Assembly (NCBI GenBank): GCA_028290305.1
Contig: JAQGKC010000395.1
Coordinates: 1-7,711, forward strand
DNA from: Bradyrhizobium sp.
GTDB taxonomy: Bacteria > Pseudomonadota > Alphaproteobacteria > Rhizobiales > Xanthobacteraceae
Reading direction: 5' to 3'
Length of the DNA: 7,711 bases
The position numbers and the translations under genes were made by a program. This document shows, piece after piece, positions 1 through 7,711 of this stretch; positions within the stretch are counted from its first letter, which is position 1, and every line of letters starts with the position of its first letter. The notes under the pieces were generated by a model, which worked only from the letters and a program-made list of their open reading frames with translations, was not told where the DNA came from and did not search any database.

Positions 1-954
1 GCGCTGTACCGAGCGAGAGACTGGCGCATCCTTGTTCAAAGACCGATGCGTTCTGACTCCGTTGTAGTAGCGGGCGTAAGATTTCAGAATGCGACTCAGA
101 TGCGCCTCGCCCAGGACAATCACATGATCGACACTCTCGCGCCGGATCGAGCCGACGAGCCGTTCAGCAACGCCATTCTGCCAGGGTGAGGCCGGTGCGG
201 TAAGCTTGTCCCGGATGCCCATGGCACGCAGTCGGCGTGTGACGACCGCACCATAGATGCGATCCCGGTCGCGGATCATGTAGCGCGGAGCTTCGTTCCA
301 CGGGAATGCTTCTGTGATCTGGCGCGCGACCCAATCGGCGGTCGGATAGGCTGTGACATTGATCCAGACAAGATCTCTGCGACCGAGCCGGACGATGACG
401 AAGGCATAGAGCAGGTCGAAACCGATGGTCGGAACAACGAACAGGTCCACGGCGGCAATGTCCGGCGCGTGGTTGTGCAGGAAGGTCCGCCATCCCTGGC
501 TGGGCGGCCCGCGTCGTTTGACGATGTATTTGGCGACACTCGACTGCGCGACCTCAAACCCGAGCTTGAGTAGTTCGCCGTGGATGCGGGGCGCACCCCA
601 AAGCGGGTTCTCGATGCTCATCCGCCGGATCAGTGCGCGCAGCTCCGTCTCGATCTGTGGCCGACCTGCCCGTCGACGCGATTTCCAACGCCAATAGCAG
701 CGAAAGCCCGCCCTGTGCCAACGCAAGAGCGTTTCAGGCCGAACGATCATCAGCACCTTCAGGATCGATGGAAACCAGCAATACAGCTGGACAAAGAACC
801 ATCGATCATAGTTGGTCAGCTGGGCGCGACCATGCGGCCTACGCCTCAAGACAATCAACTGATGTCGAAGCGCCGCGTTCTCGGCTTCAAGCCGCAACTT
901 CGACTTGAATGGCGAGGCCAGGATGGCCAGAGCGAAACAAAGCAGCCCGATCAT
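1..954 (-). CDS. DDE integrase-core transposase, C-terminus cut by the window edge
   Basis: The minus strand is open for exactly 318 codons from an ATG at 954-952 to base 1 with no stop, so the gene continues past the left edge. An in-frame TAA lies four codons upstream of this ATG, and no clear Shine-Dalgarno sequence precedes it. The N-terminus (about residues 1-40) is a hydrophobic stretch followed by a LRLEAENAALRHQLIVLRRR segment. A helix-turn-helix-like region with WGAPRIHGELLKLG lies at 119-132, and the rve integrase core spans about 160-300. Candidate catalytic residues are D170 (IAAVD), D229 (IRDRD) and E264 (WQNGVAER), with roughly the D-x34-E spacing of IS3/IS481-like enzymes; YARYYNGVRTHRSL follows. 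It should cut and join DNA ends of its insertion sequence. Relatives I recall are about 335-340 residues, so some 20 are missing. Element ends and target duplications cannot be placed because one end is outside the window. Family confidence is high; the exact IS name is unknown. Confidence 0.9.
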   Translation of the reverse strand, partial: MIGLLCFALAILASPFKSKLRLEAENAALRHQLIVLRRRPHGRAQLTNYDRWFFVQLYCWFPSILKVLMIVRPETLLRWHRAGFRCYWRWKSRRRAGRPQIETELRALIRRMSIENPLWGAPRIHGELLKLGFEVAQSSVAKYIVKRRGPPSQGWRTFLHNHAPDIAAVDLFVVPTIGFDLLYAFVIVRLGRRDLVWINVTAYPTADWVARQITEAFPWNEAPRYMIRDRDRIYGAVVTRRLRAMGIRDKLTAPASPWQNGVAERLVGSIRRESVDHVIVLGEAHLSRILKSYARYYNGVRTHRSLNKDAPVSRSVQR

Positions 955-1101
955 TAGGACAGTTTAAGCGGTTCCGTCACGTTATCAACTCGGATGAGGT
1001 TTTCGGTACACACACCCGGATGCCGCATGCGACACTGGATCGACGGTGGTCCGGAAACAGCTTCCGTTCGCGGCATGTCTGTGCCGGGCCGTCGGTTTCT
1101 G

Positions 1102-1274
1102 CTAGGTTATCACCGCCTCGAATTTGTCCATGAGCTCTTTGGCCAGGCTTCAAACGTATTGGCCCGCGCGTTCCGGCGCTCTTCCTTCCGATTAACCGAG
1201 GGATCAACACCTTCGCCCAGCAATTTCTTGGCGTTGTCTCGCTTGATGCGCGCGTCCGCGAGTGACGTCACTAT
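1102..1274 (-). pseudogene. Frameshifted fragment of a tyrosine recombinase (phage/island integrase)
   Basis: Directly in frame with the dehydrogenase remnant, the sequence reads SLADARIKRDNAKKLLGEGV then DPSVNRKEERR and ARANTFEAW. This is the pattern seen where the arm-type DNA-binding domain of P4-like/island tyrosine integrases meets the core-binding domain. After the NTFEAW codons the original frame gives unrelated residues and stops at 1110. Shifting by one base near 1145-1143 restores AKELMDKFEAV, typical of the family, which then hits TAG at 1104-1102. The catalytic domain (R-H-R-Y) is absent. Only about 60 residues of a roughly 400-residue protein survive, so it cannot be functional. 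It points to an old integrated element. I assign the family from motif resemblance alone. Nothing recognisable lies in the ~147 bases between this fragment and the transposase start at 954. Confidence 0.7.
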
Positions 1275-1514
1275 AGCAGCGTCAACACCTTCGCCAGTCG
1301 CGTCGACGATGCCGACCGCTTCGCTACCGCCGATGGCCGGCAAAACAGATTTAAAGCCGTACTCGCCGCGCACAGTCCAAAGATCGTGATTGTGGATCGG
1401 CGACAGGAGGGTGCGGATGCGCACCTGTCCCGGACCCGGCGTAGGAGCCGGCGCTTCTCCGACGACAAGAACTCCGGCGGGATCGGCGAACGCGTGATGG
1501 ATCAAGCCTCGCAT
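1275..1514 (-). pseudogene. N-terminal remnant of an MDR-family (zinc-type) dehydrogenase/quinone oxidoreductase
   Basis: Starting at the ATG at 1514, about 80 codons match the GroES-like N-terminal domain of medium-chain dehydrogenases. Visible segments are MRGLIHHAF (1-9), EAPAPTPGPGQVRIR (20-34), SPIHNHDLWTVRG (38-50) and LPAIGGSEAVGIVDATGEGV (58-77). An ATG eight codons upstream (1538) is in frame, but AGGAGG at 1525-1520 sits five bases before the 1514 ATG and fixes the start there. Full-length members are around 320-340 residues with a Rossmann NAD(P)-binding domain, which is entirely absent here. After residue 80 the reading frame continues into unrelated integrase sequence. What remains could not be an active oxidoreductase. 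The cut probably came from insertion or recombination of a mobile element. Family assignment is confident; the original substrate is unknown. Confidence 0.8.
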
Positions 1515-1539
1515 TGCATCCTCCTGATTTTCGGGCATT

Positions 1540-1926
1540 GCAATGCATGCCGGTTGGGATAGCTGAACCGATCGGAGCGGCAGAGTTTAGCTTGAGTAGT
1601 GAGAAGCGGGCGTGTTCGTCCTGCAACTCTCGCCAAGCTCGCTCTGTGACTGCTGAACAGCTCGCTCGAACGAACCTCGCGATTCCTTCGCGGCCGCTAT
1701 TCCTGCAATCGCAGCACAGATCCTAGCGATCAGGAACACCGCCTCAATGACGTAAATGCGGTGATTTAGGACATCTAGGGCGACGGCGTTTCGACATCGC
1801 CGATTGACACCCGGCGAAAGCCGTTTGCATCTCACATCAGAAACCAAGGTTGTCCAAGATCATTCAATATTTACGAGTCCAACTTGAGCAAACTTCGCAA
1901 CATTAGAGGTTCAAGGAAGACATCGA
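1540..1926. other. Gene-free stretch upstream of the UGSC-like gene
   Basis: I recognise no gene here. The open frames on either strand are short and resemble no family I know. The stretch separates the outward-facing RBS of the dehydrogenase remnant from the start of the plus-strand gene at 1927. It should hold the promoter of that gene, since no other gene lies upstream on the same strand. A perfect TTGACA hexamer sits at 1804-1809. Confidence 0.5.
1804..1832 (+). promoter_or_regulatory. Possible sigma-70-type -35 element (TTGACA) upstream of the UGSC-like gene
   Basis: TTGACA at 1804-1809 is a perfect -35 consensus about 115 bases before the ATG at 1927. The best -10 at usual spacing is poor (TTGCAT 1825-1830 or GCATCT 1827-1832), so the hexamer may be chance. 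An AT-rich patch at 1861-1872 is an alternative location for promoter melting, but no matching -35 is visible. Confidence 0.2.
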
Positions 1927-3630
1927 ATGACGAAAGGTACTTCTTATCAAACGGTTTGGCCGGGAGGTCGTCCTTCGATCGAGGTATTTGCGCCAGCACG
2001 CCGTCCCACGACCCTTGCAGGTCTCCGGATTGCGTTCGTCTGGGACTATCTCTTTCGAGGTGACGAAATCTTTGCGATACTGGAGGAAGCTTTGCGCGAA
2101 GCCTATCCGGATGCGACTTTCGTGGGCTACGAAAATTTCGGAAATACGCTCGGCGCCAATGATCATAAAGTGCTCGCCGAATTGCCCAGCAAGCTTGCCG
2201 AACATGGCGTGGATGTGGTCGTTTCCGGCGTCGGATGCTGCGGCGCATGCACACCGGCAGTCATGCGCGCCAGCGCCGTGATGGAGAAAGCCGGTATCGC
2301 AACAGCCTCGCTCGTGTGCGAGGGCTTTGCAGGGCAGGCCCATGCGGTATCCCCGGGTCTTGGTTGCGCGTGGCTCCCCGTGGTGGAGATGCCAGGATAT
2401 GTCGATAGCTTGAGTGACGCAGAGCTGCGTGAAATGGTGCTGTCCCACACCCAGCATGCCGTGGTGAAATGCCTTACGACGAAGCCCATTTCTCAAGGAA
2501 GGGCAGCAAAATCATATTCGCCCGAGAAGATCGTGGCGACGGGCGATTTTAACGAGGTCAACGACACCTATCGGGCCGAAGGCTGGTCCGACGGCCTGCC
2601 GATCGTCCCGCCAACCACGGACGTGGTGCAAGCCTTCTTGAAATTCACCAAGGATTCCCCGGACAGGCTCATCGGGTGCGTTCAACCCTCCGGGTCCGGT
2701 GTGACAATCTGGAATGTGGCTGTGAATGGCGTAATGGCGGGATGCGCCCCCGAATACATGCCGGTCTTGGTTGCCATTGCCGAGACCATGGCCAGTCCCG
2801 AATACGGGGTCGAGCACAGCGGCGACACGACAGGTGGCGATCCGCTCATAGTGCTCAGCGGTCCGGTCATCGAATCCCTTGGTTTCAATTGCGCAAACGG
2901 CGCAATGCGGGAAGGGGCGAGGGCTAACACCACCGTTGGAAGGTTCGTGCGCCTCTTCCTGCGAAATATTGTCGGTCTTCGCCCGGGTGAAGGCGACAAA
3001 TGCACGTTCGGCCACTCTGCCCGCCTTGTCCTGGCCGAGCACGAGCCGGAAATTTCGAAACTCGGCTGGACGACGTTTGCGGAACGCCGCGGGTTCGCGA
3101 AAGGCTCCAATGTCGTAACGGTAGGACGTTTCACGGGCGACACGGTCGTGGGATCAATCTACGGTCGCGATCCGGAGGACATCGCGCTCTACCTGGCTGA
3201 CGGTCTGATCCGTCAAAGCGGTTGGGAGCTTTGCTTTACTGCTGGCCTTGCTCCCGGCACGCACCGTCCGCTGTTGGTGATAAGTCCGATGGTCGCCAAA
3301 ACGCTGGCGAAGGCCGGAAGCAATATCGAAGATCTCCGAGATCGGCTTTATCGTCACGCCCGGATTACTGCTTGGAAGTTCGAGGCCTACATCGGCAAAT
3401 ACTCAAACTTTGTTCCAGGACGTAGAACGCTGCGGCAACTGCATGATGATGGTCTTGCTGCCGGGCAATTCGCAGAGAGCGACGATCCGAACCGCTTGGT
3501 TCCGATCGTCCAGCGCCCGGAAGACATCCTGATTGTCGTTTCCGGTGATCCATATCGGTCCAACGCGATGGCTTTTGGAAGCAATGGGCTTCACGGCTTT
3601 CCGACCAGTCGGGAAATACGGCTCGCTTGA
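1927..3630 (+). CDS. UGSC-type (seleno)protein homologue with Cys replacing Sec, fused to a large C-terminal domain
   Basis: This 567-residue, probably cytoplasmic protein has no signal peptide or membrane segment. The ATG at 1927 follows AAGGAAG (1913-1919) at seven bases. Residues about 30-185 form an alpha/beta domain with LRIAFVWDYLFRGDEIFAIL (33-52), VGYENFGNT (66-74) and VVVSGVGCCGACTPAV (97-112). The last matches the UGSC family signature G-x-x-U-G-S-C-T, with C105 at the selenocysteine position, A107 for Ser and C108 kept. Residues about 205-567 are a second domain often fused to it in my recollection, with EGWSDGLPIVPPT (218-230), WNVAVNGVMAGCAPEYMPV (262-280, C273 conserved), ANTTVGRFVRLFLRN (333-347) and the terminal PTSREIRLA. 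The C105-G-A-C108 pair suggests thiol redox or metal/organometal chemistry, but no reaction is established for the family. It converges on the AraC-type gene, 106 bases away, and lies near an ABC substrate-binding gene, so a role in processing an imported compound is an inference. Family confidence is good; function unknown. Confidence 0.8.
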   Translation: MTKGTSYQTVWPGGRPSIEVFAPARRPTTLAGLRIAFVWDYLFRGDEIFAILEEALREAYPDATFVGYENFGNTLGANDHKVLAELPSKLAEHGVDVVVSGVGCCGACTPAVMRASAVMEKAGIATASLVCEGFAGQAHAVSPGLGCAWLPVVEMPGYVDSLSDAELREMVLSHTQHAVVKCLTTKPISQGRAAKSYSPEKIVATGDFNEVNDTYRAEGWSDGLPIVPPTTDVVQAFLKFTKDSPDRLIGCVQPSGSGVTIWNVAVNGVMAGCAPEYMPVLVAIAETMASPEYGVEHSGDTTGGDPLIVLSGPVIESLGFNCANGAMREGARANTTVGRFVRLFLRNIVGLRPGEGDKCTFGHSARLVLAEHEPEISKLGWTTFAERRGFAKGSNVVTVGRFTGDTVVGSIYGRDPEDIALYLADGLIRQSGWELCFTAGLAPGTHRPLLVISPMVAKTLAKAGSNIEDLRDRLYRHARITAWKFEAYIGKYSNFVPGRRTLRQLHDDGLAAGQFAESDDPNRLVPIVQRPEDILIVVSGDPYRSNAMAFGSNGLHGFPTSREIRLA

Positions 3631-3703
3631 TCGATCGTTGCGTTTGAATTGGCCGACGTTCGGGTACCGGGATATTACGGCTGGATCGCGTGCACCATGC
3701 AGG

Positions 3704-3722
3704 GAAAGGCTCTTCGCTTTTC
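3704..3722. terminator. Weak hairpin between the convergent UGSC-like and AraC-type genes
   Basis: GAAAGGC (3704-3710) can pair with GCTTTTC (3716-3722) around a TCTTC loop, with one G-T pair. It lies between the two convergent stop codons. The stem is short and there is only a four-T run inside the arm, so a terminator role is weakly supported. Confidence 0.2.
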
Positions 3723-3736
3723 GACGCAACAGTTGC

Positions 3737-4600
3737 CTACGGGTATGGAAGCGGGAATAAGCGCGGGTGGGCGTTTGCCGTCTGCGACTGGAACACAAGG
3801 TGGTCTTTCCTAAACCGGCCCGGCGTGATGCCGGTGACCCGCTTGAAGGCGCGTGTAAGGTGGGCCTGGTCCGCAAAACCCGTGGCAGCCGCCACGTCTG
3901 CTACGGCCTGCCCCTTCGATAGCAGTTCAAGACCCCTGTGTAGACGCCGTTGCATGTGCCAAGCATGCGGAGGCATGCCGACAATCGTCGTAAAGCATCG
4001 GACCAGCAGGAAGCGGTCGATCCTCGCAATTCGCGCCAGCTCGGTCAGCGTCACGTTTTGATGAAGAAATGCAGCGAGATAAGACTTGCAGGTCTCGACC
4101 GCCCGCAGCTCCGTGGGCTTGTGCGATGCCCTCCGCGGAAGACGGGCGTGACGAGTAAGAAAGCATTCCAGCATTTCCAGAAGCGCTTCTTCCTGCTGCA
4201 AGACGGGTGTGCCATTGAGGCTGCGAAGCAGGGTCTGGAGCACAGATTTCGTCCCGGCGTCGGAGATTTTGGTCTCGCACAGAAAGCGCGAGCCCTTGGG
4301 ACGATGTTGTTCGAGCACGTCCGAAGGAATCGTTATCGAGTGATAAAACCACCCAGCTTCTACGCCTGGCTCTGCTGAGTGCACTTCATTAGGCGGCACC
4401 GCCAAGATCGTCCCCGCATCGGCCGAATGCGTGACACCTCGGCAATGGAGCGCCTGCACGCCATCGCCCAAGAGCGAAAGCATCAACCCGTCGTGGCTAT
4501 GCCGGGGCAAAACATGGCCGCGGTATCGTCCCGCGACGACCTCCATCCCGCCCAGATCATGCAGTTTGAGGCCGCGAGGAATAGCGCTCTGGATTGCCAT
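3737..4600 (-). CDS. AraC/XylS-family transcriptional regulator with N-terminal cupin
   Basis: The protein is 287 residues, the usual size for an AraC activator with a sensing domain. The N-terminal half (about 10-150) is a cupin-like effector domain with LPRHSHDGLML (31-41) and PPNEVHSAEPG (69-79). The C-terminal half (about 180-267) is a double helix-turn-helix: first HTH VTLTELARIARIDRFLLVRC (183-202), then MPPHAWHMQRRLHRGLELL (209-227), and second HTH VADVAAATGFADQAHLTRAF (233-252) closing with GITPGRFRK. It should bind a small molecule and activate or repress nearby promoters. A TAA lies four codons upstream in frame, so the ATG at 4600 is the first ATG; no strong RBS precedes it. It converges on the UGSC-like gene and diverges from the ABC substrate-binding gene. 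The likely target is the shared upstream region 4601-5028, but the effector is unknown. Confidence 0.92.
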   Translation of the reverse strand: MAIQSAIPRGLKLHDLGGMEVVAGRYRGHVLPRHSHDGLMLSLLGDGVQALHCRGVTHSADAGTILAVPPNEVHSAEPGVEAGWFYHSITIPSDVLEQHRPKGSRFLCETKISDAGTKSVLQTLLRSLNGTPVLQQEEALLEMLECFLTRHARLPRRASHKPTELRAVETCKSYLAAFLHQNVTLTELARIARIDRFLLVRCFTTIVGMPPHAWHMQRRLHRGLELLSKGQAVADVAAATGFADQAHLTRAFKRVTGITPGRFRKDHLVFQSQTANAHPRLFPLPYP

Positions 4601-4638
4601 GGGGCGAGTTTAGGAGTCCGGCGGGAGAGGGCAAGCGT

Positions 4639-4660
4639 TTTGCAACGCCTCGCTTTGCAA
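4639..4660. repeat. Direct repeat TTTGCAA x2, candidate regulator site
   Basis: TTTGCAA occurs at 4639-4645 and again at 4654-4660, start-to-start 15 bases, about 39-60 bases upstream of the AraC-type start. Two direct half-sites on related helix faces are a common arrangement for AraC-family operators, though 15 bases is not a whole number of turns and the 7-mers may be coincidental. Confidence 0.25.
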
Positions 4661-4682
4661 ATTATCCAATAACGTTCAAGCG

Positions 4683-4706
4683 TCCATGTTCCTCTTCTGG
4701 CATGGA
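4683..4706. repeat. Inverted repeat TCCATG-N12-CATGGA
   Basis: Perfect six-base arms at 4683-4688 and 4701-4706 span 24 bases in the divergent promoter region. This size fits a dimeric regulator operator. It is short enough to arise by chance. Confidence 0.25.
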
Positions 4707-5014
4707 AAGACGCGGGGAAAATTGAGGAACGCGCCCCAGCGACGGTTGCTACAATTGTTGCGGCGACTGGGAGCGGAGTCACCACCAAATTGATCTTACG
4801 GCGCGCTGGTCTAGGCCGGCCCCGGAAAAAAATTGCCGGCGTCTCCGCAAGCAAGCCGATCTACGAGATGGCTGCGTCAGCAGATGCGGTCTTGAGCTCG
4901 GACCGACCAAAAGACGCGAGTCAATCGCGCACAGTTCCTCAAGCGACCTGATGAAGCCCGAACGTTGTCGGACCTCGTAACAATGTGGGGTGCGGTCATG
5001 CCTGTAACTTCCAG

Positions 5015-5020
5015 AGAAGG
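5015..5020 (+). promoter_or_regulatory. Ribosome binding site AGAAGG that decides the start of the ABC substrate-binding gene
   Basis: AGAAGG at 5015-5020 is eight bases from the ATG at 5029 but only two from the in-frame GTG at 5023. The spacing favours the ATG. Confidence 0.6.
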
Positions 5021-5028
5021 TAGTGGAA

Positions 5029-6243
5029 ATGTTGAACTCTAAGTTCGGCGCAACGTTGCTGACGCTCCTGATTATGGCGCCGATTACCACGCTGCAGGGT
5101 CTGCGCGCTGAGGAGGCACCCGTTCGTATAGGCGTTATCAACGACCAATCGGGCAACTCCGCAGATGTAACAGGGCAGGGCTCGGTGATTGCGGCCCGGC
5201 TTGCGATCGAGGATTTTGGCGAGAAAGTGCTTGGGCGTCGCATCGAACTGCTCACCGCCGACCACCAGAACAAGGCTGACATCGCGGCGTCTATTACACG
5301 GCGATGGATAGACGTAGAGAATGTCAGTGCCATCGTCGATGGGGGTACGTCCGCGGCCGGCTTAGTGATCCAGGACATCGTGAAGGAGAAAGGAAGGATC
5401 GCCATGTTCTCGGGCCCGGCGACTTCCGACCTCACTGGTAAGGCTTGTTCGCCCCTCGGATTTCACTGGACTTACGATACTTATGCGCTAGCCAATACGC
5501 TTCCGCAGGCGATGGCCAGATCCGGCGCCGATACATGGTTTTTCATAACCAGCGACTATGCGTTTGGCCATGCGCTCGAGCGAGACGCGACGACGGCCAT
5601 CGAACGCACTGGCGGAAAAGTACTCGGTCACGTGAGGCACCCGCTCGGGACCTCTGATTTCGCTTCCTTTCTGCTGCAGGCACAAGGATCCGGTGCCAAA
5701 ATCATCGGCCTCGCCAATTCCGGCGATGATTCATTGAATACGATCAAACAAGCGGCAGAATTCGGTATCGTCGAGGGTGGTCAGCGAATTGGAGGGCTTC
5801 TTCTTCTCATAAACACGATCCATGGCCTTGGACTTAAAACTTCGCAAGGCATTGTGGTGACTGAAGCCTTCTATTGGGACATGGATGATGAAACCCGGCG
5901 CTTCTCCCGGCGCTTCGAAGCGCTCGCCAGGAAGAAGCCCAATATGATCCAGGCCGGTGTCTATAGCGCCGTCAGTCACTATCTGAAGTCCGTGCAGAAG
6001 GCGGGATCAATCGCTGGGGCGGCCGTTTCCGATGCGATGCGTTCGCTGCCGGTCAACGATTTCATGAGCAAAGACGTCAGGATTCGTAAAGATGGCCGCG
6101 TCTTACGTGATATGCATTTGTTCCAAGTAAAATCTCCATCGGAGTCCAAAGGGCCCTGGGACTACTACAAATACCTCTCCACCGTTCGTGGTGAAGACGC
6201 TTTTAGGCCTGTGGCTGAGAGTGAATGTCCGCTGCTCCGCTAG
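5029..6243 (+). CDS. Periplasmic ABC transporter substrate-binding protein, branched-chain amino acid type (Peripla_BP_6)
   Basis: From the ATG at 5029 the protein is 404 residues. A GTG two codons earlier is in frame but sits too close to the RBS. Residues 1-27 are a Sec signal peptide with a long hydrophobic core (ATLLTLLIMAPITTL) and likely cleavage after LRA. The mature protein begins VRIGVINDQSGNSADVTGQG, the opening of type-I periplasmic binding folds. Further family segments are EDFGEKVLGRRIELLTADHQ, SGPATSDLTGKACSP, TWFFITSDYAFGHALE, TSDFASFLLQAQ, TEAFYWDMDDETRRFSRRF, QAGVYSAVSHYLKSVQKAG, and SESKGPWDYYKYLST near the end. It should capture a small ligand in the periplasm for an ABC importer. 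No permease or ATPase gene is in the window, so it is an orphan here or shares a distant transporter. It is transcribed away from the AraC-type gene, which probably controls it. The subfamily covers amino acids, amides, urea and aromatic compounds, so the ligand is open. Confidence 0.92.
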   Translation: MLNSKFGATLLTLLIMAPITTLQGLRAEEAPVRIGVINDQSGNSADVTGQGSVIAARLAIEDFGEKVLGRRIELLTADHQNKADIAASITRRWIDVENVSAIVDGGTSAAGLVIQDIVKEKGRIAMFSGPATSDLTGKACSPLGFHWTYDTYALANTLPQAMARSGADTWFFITSDYAFGHALERDATTAIERTGGKVLGHVRHPLGTSDFASFLLQAQGSGAKIIGLANSGDDSLNTIKQAAEFGIVEGGQRIGGLLLLINTIHGLGLKTSQGIVVTEAFYWDMDDETRRFSRRFEALARKKPNMIQAGVYSAVSHYLKSVQKAGSIAGAAVSDAMRSLPVNDFMSKDVRIRKDGRVLRDMHLFQVKSPSESKGPWDYYKYLSTVRGEDAFRPVAESECPLLR

Positions 6244-6686
6244 GTGATTGCGCTTCGGAGGGAAGTGCTCGCGACGGACGCCATTAAGCCAGGCGAAACT
6301 ATATTCGTCCAATTCCGCCGTGATAACTCGCCCGCTTTGATCTCTTCCTACGCCGCCTGCTCTGCCGCATACTTGGTTATATCAAAAAGCAGCGGGGTTG
6401 GGACAGCATGACCGCACGATTAGATCGGTTCTCACTCGTTACCGCTCCGTTTTCCCTCTACTTCCTTGCGTTGGTGTCGCGCCCCGCTTGGCAGTCCTCT
6501 CTGCAAGCTGCCGAAATACGTTCGCCATTACCCATCGCTAGATGAAAGGTGGGGTTCAGGCCACAAGCAATCAATGTGACTGGCGGTTGTGGATGCATTA
6601 GCCGAACGCAGAAGTATTTCGGATAGCACCACCCGGAACCTCGAACGCAACCGCGCCCGTCATCGCTCTCTTCGGAGTTTCCACAG
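6244..6686. other. Gene-free stretch between the substrate-binding and MFS genes
   Basis: No recognisable gene occurs in these 443 bases apart from the hairpin at 6250-6268. A 45-codon plus-strand frame starts at ATG 6408 and ends at 6545, but it lacks a good RBS and resembles nothing I know. The place where permease or ATPase genes would be expected in a transport operon is empty, and the sequence looks non-coding or too decayed to identify. The MFS promoter should lie in its right half; I cannot point to one. Confidence 0.5.
6250..6268 (+). terminator. Hairpin just after the substrate-binding gene
   Basis: GCGCTTC (6250-6256) pairs with GAAGTGC (6262-6268), including one G-T pair, around a GGAGG loop. 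It starts seven bases after the stop codon. There is no T-run, so intrinsic termination is doubtful; it may protect the 3' end or mark a Rho-dependent end. Confidence 0.3.
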
Positions 6687-7637
6687 ATGCTCTCTGCCAA
6701 CCGGCCGGCGACCCGGCTTGCCACGCGGCTTTCGTTTCTAGTGGCGGGTTTCGGCATCGCGTGCTGGGCGCCGCTCGTGCCGTTCGCGAAGCAGCGGCTG
6801 GCCATTGATGATGCGACCCTTGGGTTGCTCCTGCTTTGCCTGGGGATTGGGTCGGTCGTCGCCATGCCGTTGACCGGCAGCTTGAGTGCTCGGTACGGCA
6901 GCAAGACGATTATCATTATAGGCGGGCTTGGCCTTGCCGTCCTTCTACCCTTGCTGCCGATCGCCAACTCGCCCTCGACGCTGGGATTGTCTCTCTTCGT
7001 GTTCGGCGCCTCGCTTGGCTCCATCGACGTCGCCATGAACATTCATGCGGTCGAAGTGGAACGTGCGGCAGGACGCCCGCTAATGTCAGGCTTTCACGCA
7101 CTCTTCAGTGTTGGTGGTTTCGCCGGATCCACTTTGGTGACCTCTTTGCTTTCGCTGCGCCTCGGAACGCTCGCGAGTACGCTAATCTGCTCGGTCCTGA
7201 TGCTGATCGCGATGCTCGTCGCCTGGCCCCGTCTGCTCCGATCGGCGCAAGCGCAGGACGGGCCGCTGTTCGTCCTGCCCCGCGGAATTGTACTGTCGCT
7301 CGCTGTGCTCGCAGCTATCGCCTTCCTCGTCGAAGGCGCACTCCTCGACTGGGGCGCGTTGCTGGTCATCGGCGCGGGGTTAGTCCCCGAGGTGCATGGC
7401 GGGGTAGGCTATATTCTTTTCTCGATCGCAATGACAGCCGGTCGATTTGGCGGAGACGCTGTCGTCGCGCGCGTCGGGGATCGCGCCACGCTATTCTGGG
7501 GAAGCCTTCTGGCCGTCGCAGGCTTCGCGGTCCTGCTGATCGCGCCCGTGGCGGCAATCGCGATCCCCGGTTTTCTTCTCATTGGCCTAGCCCAACTTTC
7601 CCAACTGAGGGGTAACGCAGCCAAATATTCCTTATGA
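6687..7637 (+). pseudogene. MFS transporter (YbjJ-like type), C-terminally truncated, probably decaying
   Basis: The frame encodes 316 residues of an integral membrane transporter with about ten hydrophobic segments. Features are PLVPFAKQRLAIDDATLGLL (29-48), the MFS motif-A-like loop GSLSARYGSKT (64-74) between helices 2 and 3, DVAMNIHAVEVER (114-126), the long central loop about 180-200, and GYILFSIAMTAGRFGGD (241-257). Relatives I recall run 380-400 residues with twelve helices. Here the similarity ends near FLLIGL (296-301) and the last residues are unrelated before TGA at 7635-7637. Beyond that, other frames contain segments resembling the missing part, such as AGTDGFAIAPAAV in 7671-7711, so small indels probably broke the gene. 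The ATG at 6687 has only a weak GGAG (6674-6677) nine bases upstream. The substrate is unknown. It could still make a shortened protein, but loss of the last two helices would normally abolish transport. Confidence 0.72.
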
Positions 7638-7711
7638 ATCAAGGGCCATGGTCAAAGAGTCTTCACTACGAGGCCGGGACTGACGGCTTCGCGATCGCGC
7701 CCGCCGCGGTA
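7638..7711 (+). pseudogene. Out-of-frame residue of the MFS C-terminus
   Basis: Past the early stop, one frame reads AGTDGFAIAPAAV up to the window end, similar in pattern to the GYxGxxxGPAAxGF stretch of helix 11 in related transporters. Another frame reads QPNIPYESRAMV, where relatives have a QxxMPxxLAxxAV-like segment. The alternation of frames suggests two or more indels. The match is short and from memory. Confidence 0.4.

Follow-up and report, generated by a model that had tools for sequence, protein, structure and literature searches.

What reaction would be served by a UGSC-family protein that carries cysteine (Cys) where most of its relatives carry selenocysteine (Sec, U)? The question is raised by P0001, the product of a gene in a 7,711-nucleotide stretch of Bradyrhizobium sp. 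DNA (contig JAQGKC010000395.1, positions 1 to 7,711; hereafter the window), in which an original prediction had recognized the Cys form of the UGSC motif in a two-domain protein. Residues 97-112 of P0001 read VVVSGVGCCGACTPAV (encoded by 2215-2262), and the codons of C104, C105, and C108 are all TGC. Profile comparison makes it very probable that the UGSC domain is a remote relative of GrdB of glycine reductase and PrdB of D-proline reductase. There is about an even chance that P0001 represents the Cys version of a widely distributed selenoprotein acting in the manner of the Sec subunit in these two enzymes.

Membership in the family was borne out by a profile search, in which residues 11-183 matched Pfam PF24696 (UGSC) with 88.7 bits (cut-off 25, E 6.5e-25). 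The NCBIfam equivalog NF041046 (UGSC_fam) was reached at only 50.3 bits, under its cut-off of 125, so P0001 is a divergent UGSC protein; its homologues number at least 2398 at E <= 0.001, among 7996 scored. P0001 has in common with the proteins of PF24696/NF041046 the UGSC domain, the U/C-G-[SA]-C loop, and the fusion to a second domain (referred to as domain 2). Unlike typical members, it bears Cys rather than Sec, scores below the NF041046 cut-off, and apparently has an AraC regulator and a binding protein of its own.

The replacement of Sec by Cys at position 105 was confirmed by alignment with the Sec forms. At this column an in-frame TGA stands in 71 of 80 genome loci and Cys in eight, one further locus (L056) being unreadable in the frame used; C105-x-x-C108 thus aligns with U-x-x-C. 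All 71 TGA loci read U-G-x-C, which also upholds the predicted retention of the second Cys, C108. The remaining two peculiarities ascribed to the motif stood only in part. The additional Cys, C104, is kept in all 31 closest proteins (C105 in 30 of them) but is not special to Cys forms, since Cys precedes U in 39 of the 71 Sec forms (A in 21, G in 7, S in 2, F in 1, and D in 1). Ala instead of Ser is indeed read in P0001, but is no departure from the Sec forms, because 7/71 carry UGAC. Among the best 120 homologues listed, 65 records start just past the motif with M/V-(L)-R-A/V-S, as expected if gene callers begin after a UGA, and the other 55 hold the motif as CGAC (43), CGSC (11), or YGAC (1). 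A Sec-type UGSC plus domain-2 frame was also observed near IS1071 and IS91 on an IncP plasmid of Acidovorax sp. T1 (L146:5680-7209), where its record annotates only a 96-aa protein stopping at the TGA.

Fifteen of 385 sampled Alphaproteobacteria genomes matched at E <= 1e-60; 14 of these hold 15 full-length matches with one in-frame TGA each and the UGxC loop in every case, and the last has a fragment without the motif region. A tRNA-Sec above the gathering score was detected in 5/5 Sec-form genomes tested (64-75 bits) and in 0/3 Cys-form genomes (best 45.6, cut-off 47), this cut-off being a soft line because some second matches in Sec-form genomes pass at 47.7-50.7. In a quick tree calculated without bootstrap, the window belongs to a Cys clade that is embedded in Sec rows, and nine Sec/Cys changes are needed, at least seven of which are forced by starred branches. 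Of the 105 rows in the tree, 73 counted as Sec, 12 of them judged from truncated records, and 32 as Cys, including the Tyr-bearing P0014; 11 of the 80 loci were left out, 10 by choice plus L056. Several AhpC-TSA matches with one in-frame TGA were noted in genomes G399, G400, G401, G403, and G407, so further selenoproteins may be abundant in these carriers of UGSC.

Comparison of profiles connected the UGSC domain with GrdB and PrdB. A PF07355 search of the genomes yielded PrdB-like selenoproteins, GrdB, and PrdB, against which 123 UGSC sequences were compared using hhalign. The match reached a probability of 94.4 and a score of 58.2 for GrdB (11 sequences), 95.8 and 60.4 for PrdB (4), 94.3 and 54.6 for the PrdB-like proteins (7), and 96.5 and 67.9 for PrdB plus PrdB-like (11), with the Sec columns aligned in all four comparisons. 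The 73 loci-derived UGSC sequences alone scored 53.6-66.4 against the GrdB/PrdB sets; as yardsticks, thioredoxin (Trx) versus peroxiredoxin (Prx) gave 44.9 and GrdB versus the PrdB set 215.4. Column shuffling (100 shuffles each) produced maximum scores of 24.9 (GrdB) and 25.1 (PrdB set), and reversed profiles 19.1 and 20.5, respectively. As a negative control, 23 neighbouring clusters of open reading frames (ORFs), delimited by our own gene caller and including one (cluster 3) that is apparently an antisense ORF over UGSC genes, scored at most 24.1 with the UGSC profile. Masking of the two Sec/Cys columns left scores of 43.0-51.9 (probability 77-93), and masking of six columns 39.0-47.2 (probability 59.5-89.8, GrdB lowest).

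The resemblance can be read in the Sec loops themselves, represented by PrdB-like L097 (DAVLLVPVUPACTRAVGALGHFLERQGIPTT), GrdB L106 (DAVILTSTUGTCTRCGATMVKEIERAGIPVV), PrdB L119 (DAVLLTAGUGTCHRSAVIVQRAIEEIGIPTI), and UGSC L054 (DAVISGMGCUGSCAPAVLRASAAAEAAGIPS). GrdB and PrdB (PF07355) have a UG[TS]C Sec loop as the UGSC proteins do, and the spacing from Sec to E-x-x-G-I-P is equal in the four sequences, whereas the gap from DAV to Sec is six residues in UGSC and five in GrdB, PrdB, and PrdB-like. P0001 further differs from GrdB/PrdB in having no PF07355 match and in being fused to a different large domain, which is not PrdA/GrdE-like. An AlphaFold2 model of the UGSC domain (mean pLDDT 93) is Rossmann-like, with the Cys loop between strand and helix, and its best structural matches among Foldseek's top 1000 are Rossmann-like and generic. 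PrdB-like selenoproteins with V-U-P-x-C were encountered at L089, L091, L092, L093, L097, L098, and L101, and the contigs of their genomes also brought in UGSC loci.

A second line of evidence is provided by gene neighbourhoods. TrxB-like genes occur near 10 of the 80 loci, all on the UGSC strand and seven within about 1.4 kb; each of the 10 proteins has TIGR01292 as its top NCBIfam model, always below the equivalog cut-off. By chance, the 0.98 Mb of flanks should contain about 0.49 such genes (Poisson P about 1.5e-10, the loci not being independent), a figure derived from 25 matches in 49.7 Mb of eight genomes, all UGSC carriers. The gene order is trxB-trxA-domain2-UGSC on an Arthrobacter plasmid and UGSC-domain2-TrxB-like on a Haloterrigena plasmid. 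Other neighbour clusters around the 80 loci, named from one representative each, were TctC binding proteins (28), MmgE/PrpD (9), CoA-transferase III (9), and SBP_bac_5 (7), which suggest that imported acids or amides are catabolized, the substrates being different ones. A DsbD_TM-type protein lies near two Bacillota loci (L076 and L079). Genes annotated as phosphosulfolactate synthase were noticed near UGSC on two unrelated plasmids (L143:2886-3353 and L144:3731-4519), a possible hint at substrate.

For domain 2, Pfam gave no match to residues 199-567 at E <= 10, and its model (mean pLDDT 91) finds no clear fold match. C273 in this domain does not vary in alignments of 33 and of 81 homologues and is present in >=90% of 56 more diverse rows. 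On three haloarchaeal plasmids, UGSC and domain 2 are encoded by two genes lying side by side. A UGSC/Unknown_1 fusion is described in the accessible text of PMC2398784, and Unknown_1 is assumed here to be identical with domain 2. Genome G001 (L081-L087) holds one UGSC-domain 2 gene plus six more domain-2-like matches, so domain 2 seems to form a separate family of paralogues.

If glycine and D-proline reductase are taken as models, the reaction class could be that of a thioredoxin-fed reductive C-X lyase in its thiol version, a proposal that might equally turn out right or wrong. The thiolate of C105 (a selenolate in most relatives) would attack a small substrate at one of its carbon atoms and expel the leaving group, while domain 2, with C273, would keep the substrate bound. 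C108 would then take over, so that the reduced product is set free and C105 and C108 end up joined in a disulfide (in Sec forms, a selenenylsulfide), to be reduced by thioredoxin and thioredoxin reductase as the presumed electron donors in this host. The substrate would be imported by the neighbouring binding protein and sensed by the AraC regulator. Within this scheme, C105 as nucleophile, C108 as resolving thiol, and thioredoxin as reductant are likely assignments, a thioredoxin supply being a feature that the UGSC protein would share with glycine reductase. The computed support consists of the alignment of C105 with Sec, the remote GrdB/PrdB homology at the Sec loop, the enrichment of TrxB-like genes near relatives, and the occurrence of UGSC and domain 2 as neighbouring but separate genes in some organisms. 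For glycine and D-proline reductase, the accessible part of PMC10298544 states that a selenoether is thought to be formed and then cleaved, giving a selenenylsulfide. Leaving groups beyond amines are plausible as well, because C-F cleavage of fluoroacetate is attributed to GrdB-like proteins in the accessible part of PMC10838667. The fluoroacetate dehalogenation operon of Synergistota described there resembles the present case in that GrdB-type chemistry is proposed outside amino acids, but unlike the UGSC protein, it comprises true GrdB-complex relatives in anaerobes.

Several observations weigh against a function of the GrdB/PrdB kind. GrdB and PrdB act in anaerobes, and several UGSC hosts are aerobic. 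No direct PF07355 match to residues 1-198 was obtained with Pfam at E <= 10, and masking of six columns reduces the GrdB match to a probability of only 59.5. Profile comparison of domain 2 with the pyruvoyl-type GrdE/PrdA (PF09338) gave a probability of at most 1.1; since domain 2 is not PrdA/GrdE-like, no counterpart of the pyruvoyl part of the known mechanism was found in P0001. A TrxB-like gene was found neither in the window nor, by clustering, near 70 of the 80 loci, many of which lie on short contigs. P0014, a member of the window's clade, alone among the 31 closest proteins lacks C105 and reads C-Y-G-A-C, with C104 and C108 retained; either this metagenome record is in error, or C105 is dispensable, or C104 can serve. 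A distant fusion protein on a Sporomusa plasmid (L147:5323-7047), made up of a UGSC-like part and domain 2, has MGTS instead of C/U-G-x-C, so both redox residues are missing. Finally, according to the accessible part of PMC10298544, thioredoxin is used by glycine reductase and not by D-proline reductase.

The UxxC/CxxC motif and the linkage with Trx and thioredoxin reductase would also suit a protein of thioredoxin-like fold that reduces peroxides or disulfides as a general thiol oxidoreductase or peroxidase, as suggested for the family in 2008. Such a role is unlikely in view of the profile comparisons, where UGSC against 19 Trx and 23 Prx sequences gave probabilities of 6.0 and 1.2 (scores 21.9 and 17.6, over 9 columns), while the positive control, Trx versus Prx, reached a probability of 94.2 at the score quoted above. 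The Rossmann-like model, the fusion to a large second domain, and the catabolic-looking neighbourhoods with TctC, MmgE/PrpD, CoA transferases, and solute-binding proteins speak against it as well.

An enzyme similar in type to the Asp/Glu racemases, which would use Cys or Sec with no cofactor and act as racemase, isomerase, or decarboxylase without net reduction, was considered because the UGSC domain shows a weak match around the Cys loop to PF01177 (15 sequences, one of which, L178, may be wrong; probability 57, score 35.2 versus <=19.1 in 60 shuffles), and carboxylate-type binding proteins lie near 28/80 loci. No direct Pfam match of the UGSC domain to PF01177 was obtained at E <= 10, the GrdB/PrdB matches are stronger (54.6-67.9), and the racemases have no U/C-x-x-C pair in the aligned stretch, unlike UGSC. 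A fainter resemblance to PF01177 is also seen in the GrdB set (probability 15.1) and the PrdB set (14.5), so the UGSC match may reflect deep shared ancestry. The Asp/Glu racemase superfamily has, to our knowledge, no electron supply, and a racemase would need no thioredoxin system. Overall, this alternative is quite improbable. A weakened or idle selenoprotein relic in a host that has lost selenium use, as might be read from Cys instead of Sec, from Tyr at 105 in P0014, and from the mobile-element and broken-gene remnants in the upstream flank, is very improbable given the intact 567-aa frame, the C-G-x-C pair in 30/31 closest proteins down to 64% identity, and the AraC and binding-protein partners that seem to accompany the gene.

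The gene map in which this proposed C-X lyase stands is given in Table 1.

Table 1. Features of the UGSC locus in the window (positions in the window; aa, amino acids).
Feature	Position	Strand	Basis or remark
UGSC two-domain protein P0001, Cys form, 567 aa	1927..3630	+	ORF translation and Pfam UGSC match
UGSC domain, residues 11-183	1957..2475	+	Rossmann-like in model; very probable remote GrdB/PrdB relative
C104 TGC codon, Cys before motif	2236..2238	+	Cys in 39/71 Sec forms and 31/31 closest proteins
C105 TGC codon, proposed nucleophile	2239..2241	+	TGA (Sec) in 71/80 loci; Cys in 30/31 closest proteins
C108 TGC codon, proposed resolving Cys	2248..2250	+	Aligned with second Cys of UGTC in GrdB/PrdB
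Domain 2, residues 195-567	2509..3630	+	Without Pfam family; C273 at 2743-2745
AraC-family regulator	3737..4600	-	HTH_18 and AraC_binding matches
Periplasmic binding protein, amino-acid/amide (HAAT) type, Peripla_BP_6	5023..6243	+	PF13458, E 1.6e-103
MFS protein	6687-7637	+	74 bases from window edge; looks short for family
IS3/IS481-type transposase and broken ADH ORF	1-954 and 1110-1538	both -	Upstream flank

The HAAT name of the binding protein is borne by P0245, a close relative. AraC regulator and binding protein seem to travel with the window's UGSC clade, as judged from equal contig sizes rather than from maps. Relatives of the AraC regulator have the exact longest-contig size in common with 9/30 close UGSC relatives (six of these contigs being <17 kb), and those of the binding protein with 3/30, in both cases among the best 120 listed. 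The predicted regulator and binding protein of the protein's own thus find support in this sharing, but not in Parasedimentitalea, where the sizes listed differ (96,107 and 413,599). A rhizobial setting, likewise foreseen, is likely, since the best match from a named organism is a Bradyrhizobium protein with 85% identity to P0001, and the flanking insertion sequence has 84% and 80% identity to copies on two Bradyrhizobium plasmids. The ORF beside the transposase combines an N-terminal fragment of an ADH with a fragment of an integrase arm domain; with these two adjoining it, the UGSC cluster borders mobile-element remnants.

In the accessible text of PMC2398784, UGSC takes fifth place among the families tabulated for the Global Ocean Sampling selenoproteome, with 255 Sec and 21 Cys sequences, its Cys homologues and fusion are described, its fold is thought likely to be Trx-like, and PrdB is listed apart. 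A 2026 review (PMC13188914) counts UGSC, in its accessible part, among the selenoproteins whose functions are largely uncharacterised. Neither a UGSC function nor a GrdB/PrdB kinship is given in the accessible portions of PMC13188914, PMC9312934, PMC5029168, PMC7435645, and PMC7539508, and no stated link between UGSC and glycine reductase was found in the accessible literature outside subscription papers and preprints. For a family described in the original prediction as having no established reaction, the GrdB/PrdB kinship now offers a reaction class. New here are this kinship with its controls, the thioredoxin-reductase linkage, and the assignment of the window to a Cys clade that has a regulator of its own.

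More tentatively, UGSC plus domain 2 could represent a third Sec-dependent branch of reductive C-X lyases beside glycine and D-proline reductase, one without a pyruvoyl partner, thioredoxin-fed, and serving aerobic catabolism of imported acids or amides; it would exist in parallel Sec and Cys versions, the window harbouring one of the latter, equipped with a sensor and a binding protein of its own. Taken together, the links to GrdB/PrdB and to thioredoxin reductase propose a reaction class, catalytic residues, and an electron donor for the UGSC family. The Cys form offers a convenient way into testing them, as it can be produced in ordinary laboratory hosts without selenium machinery.
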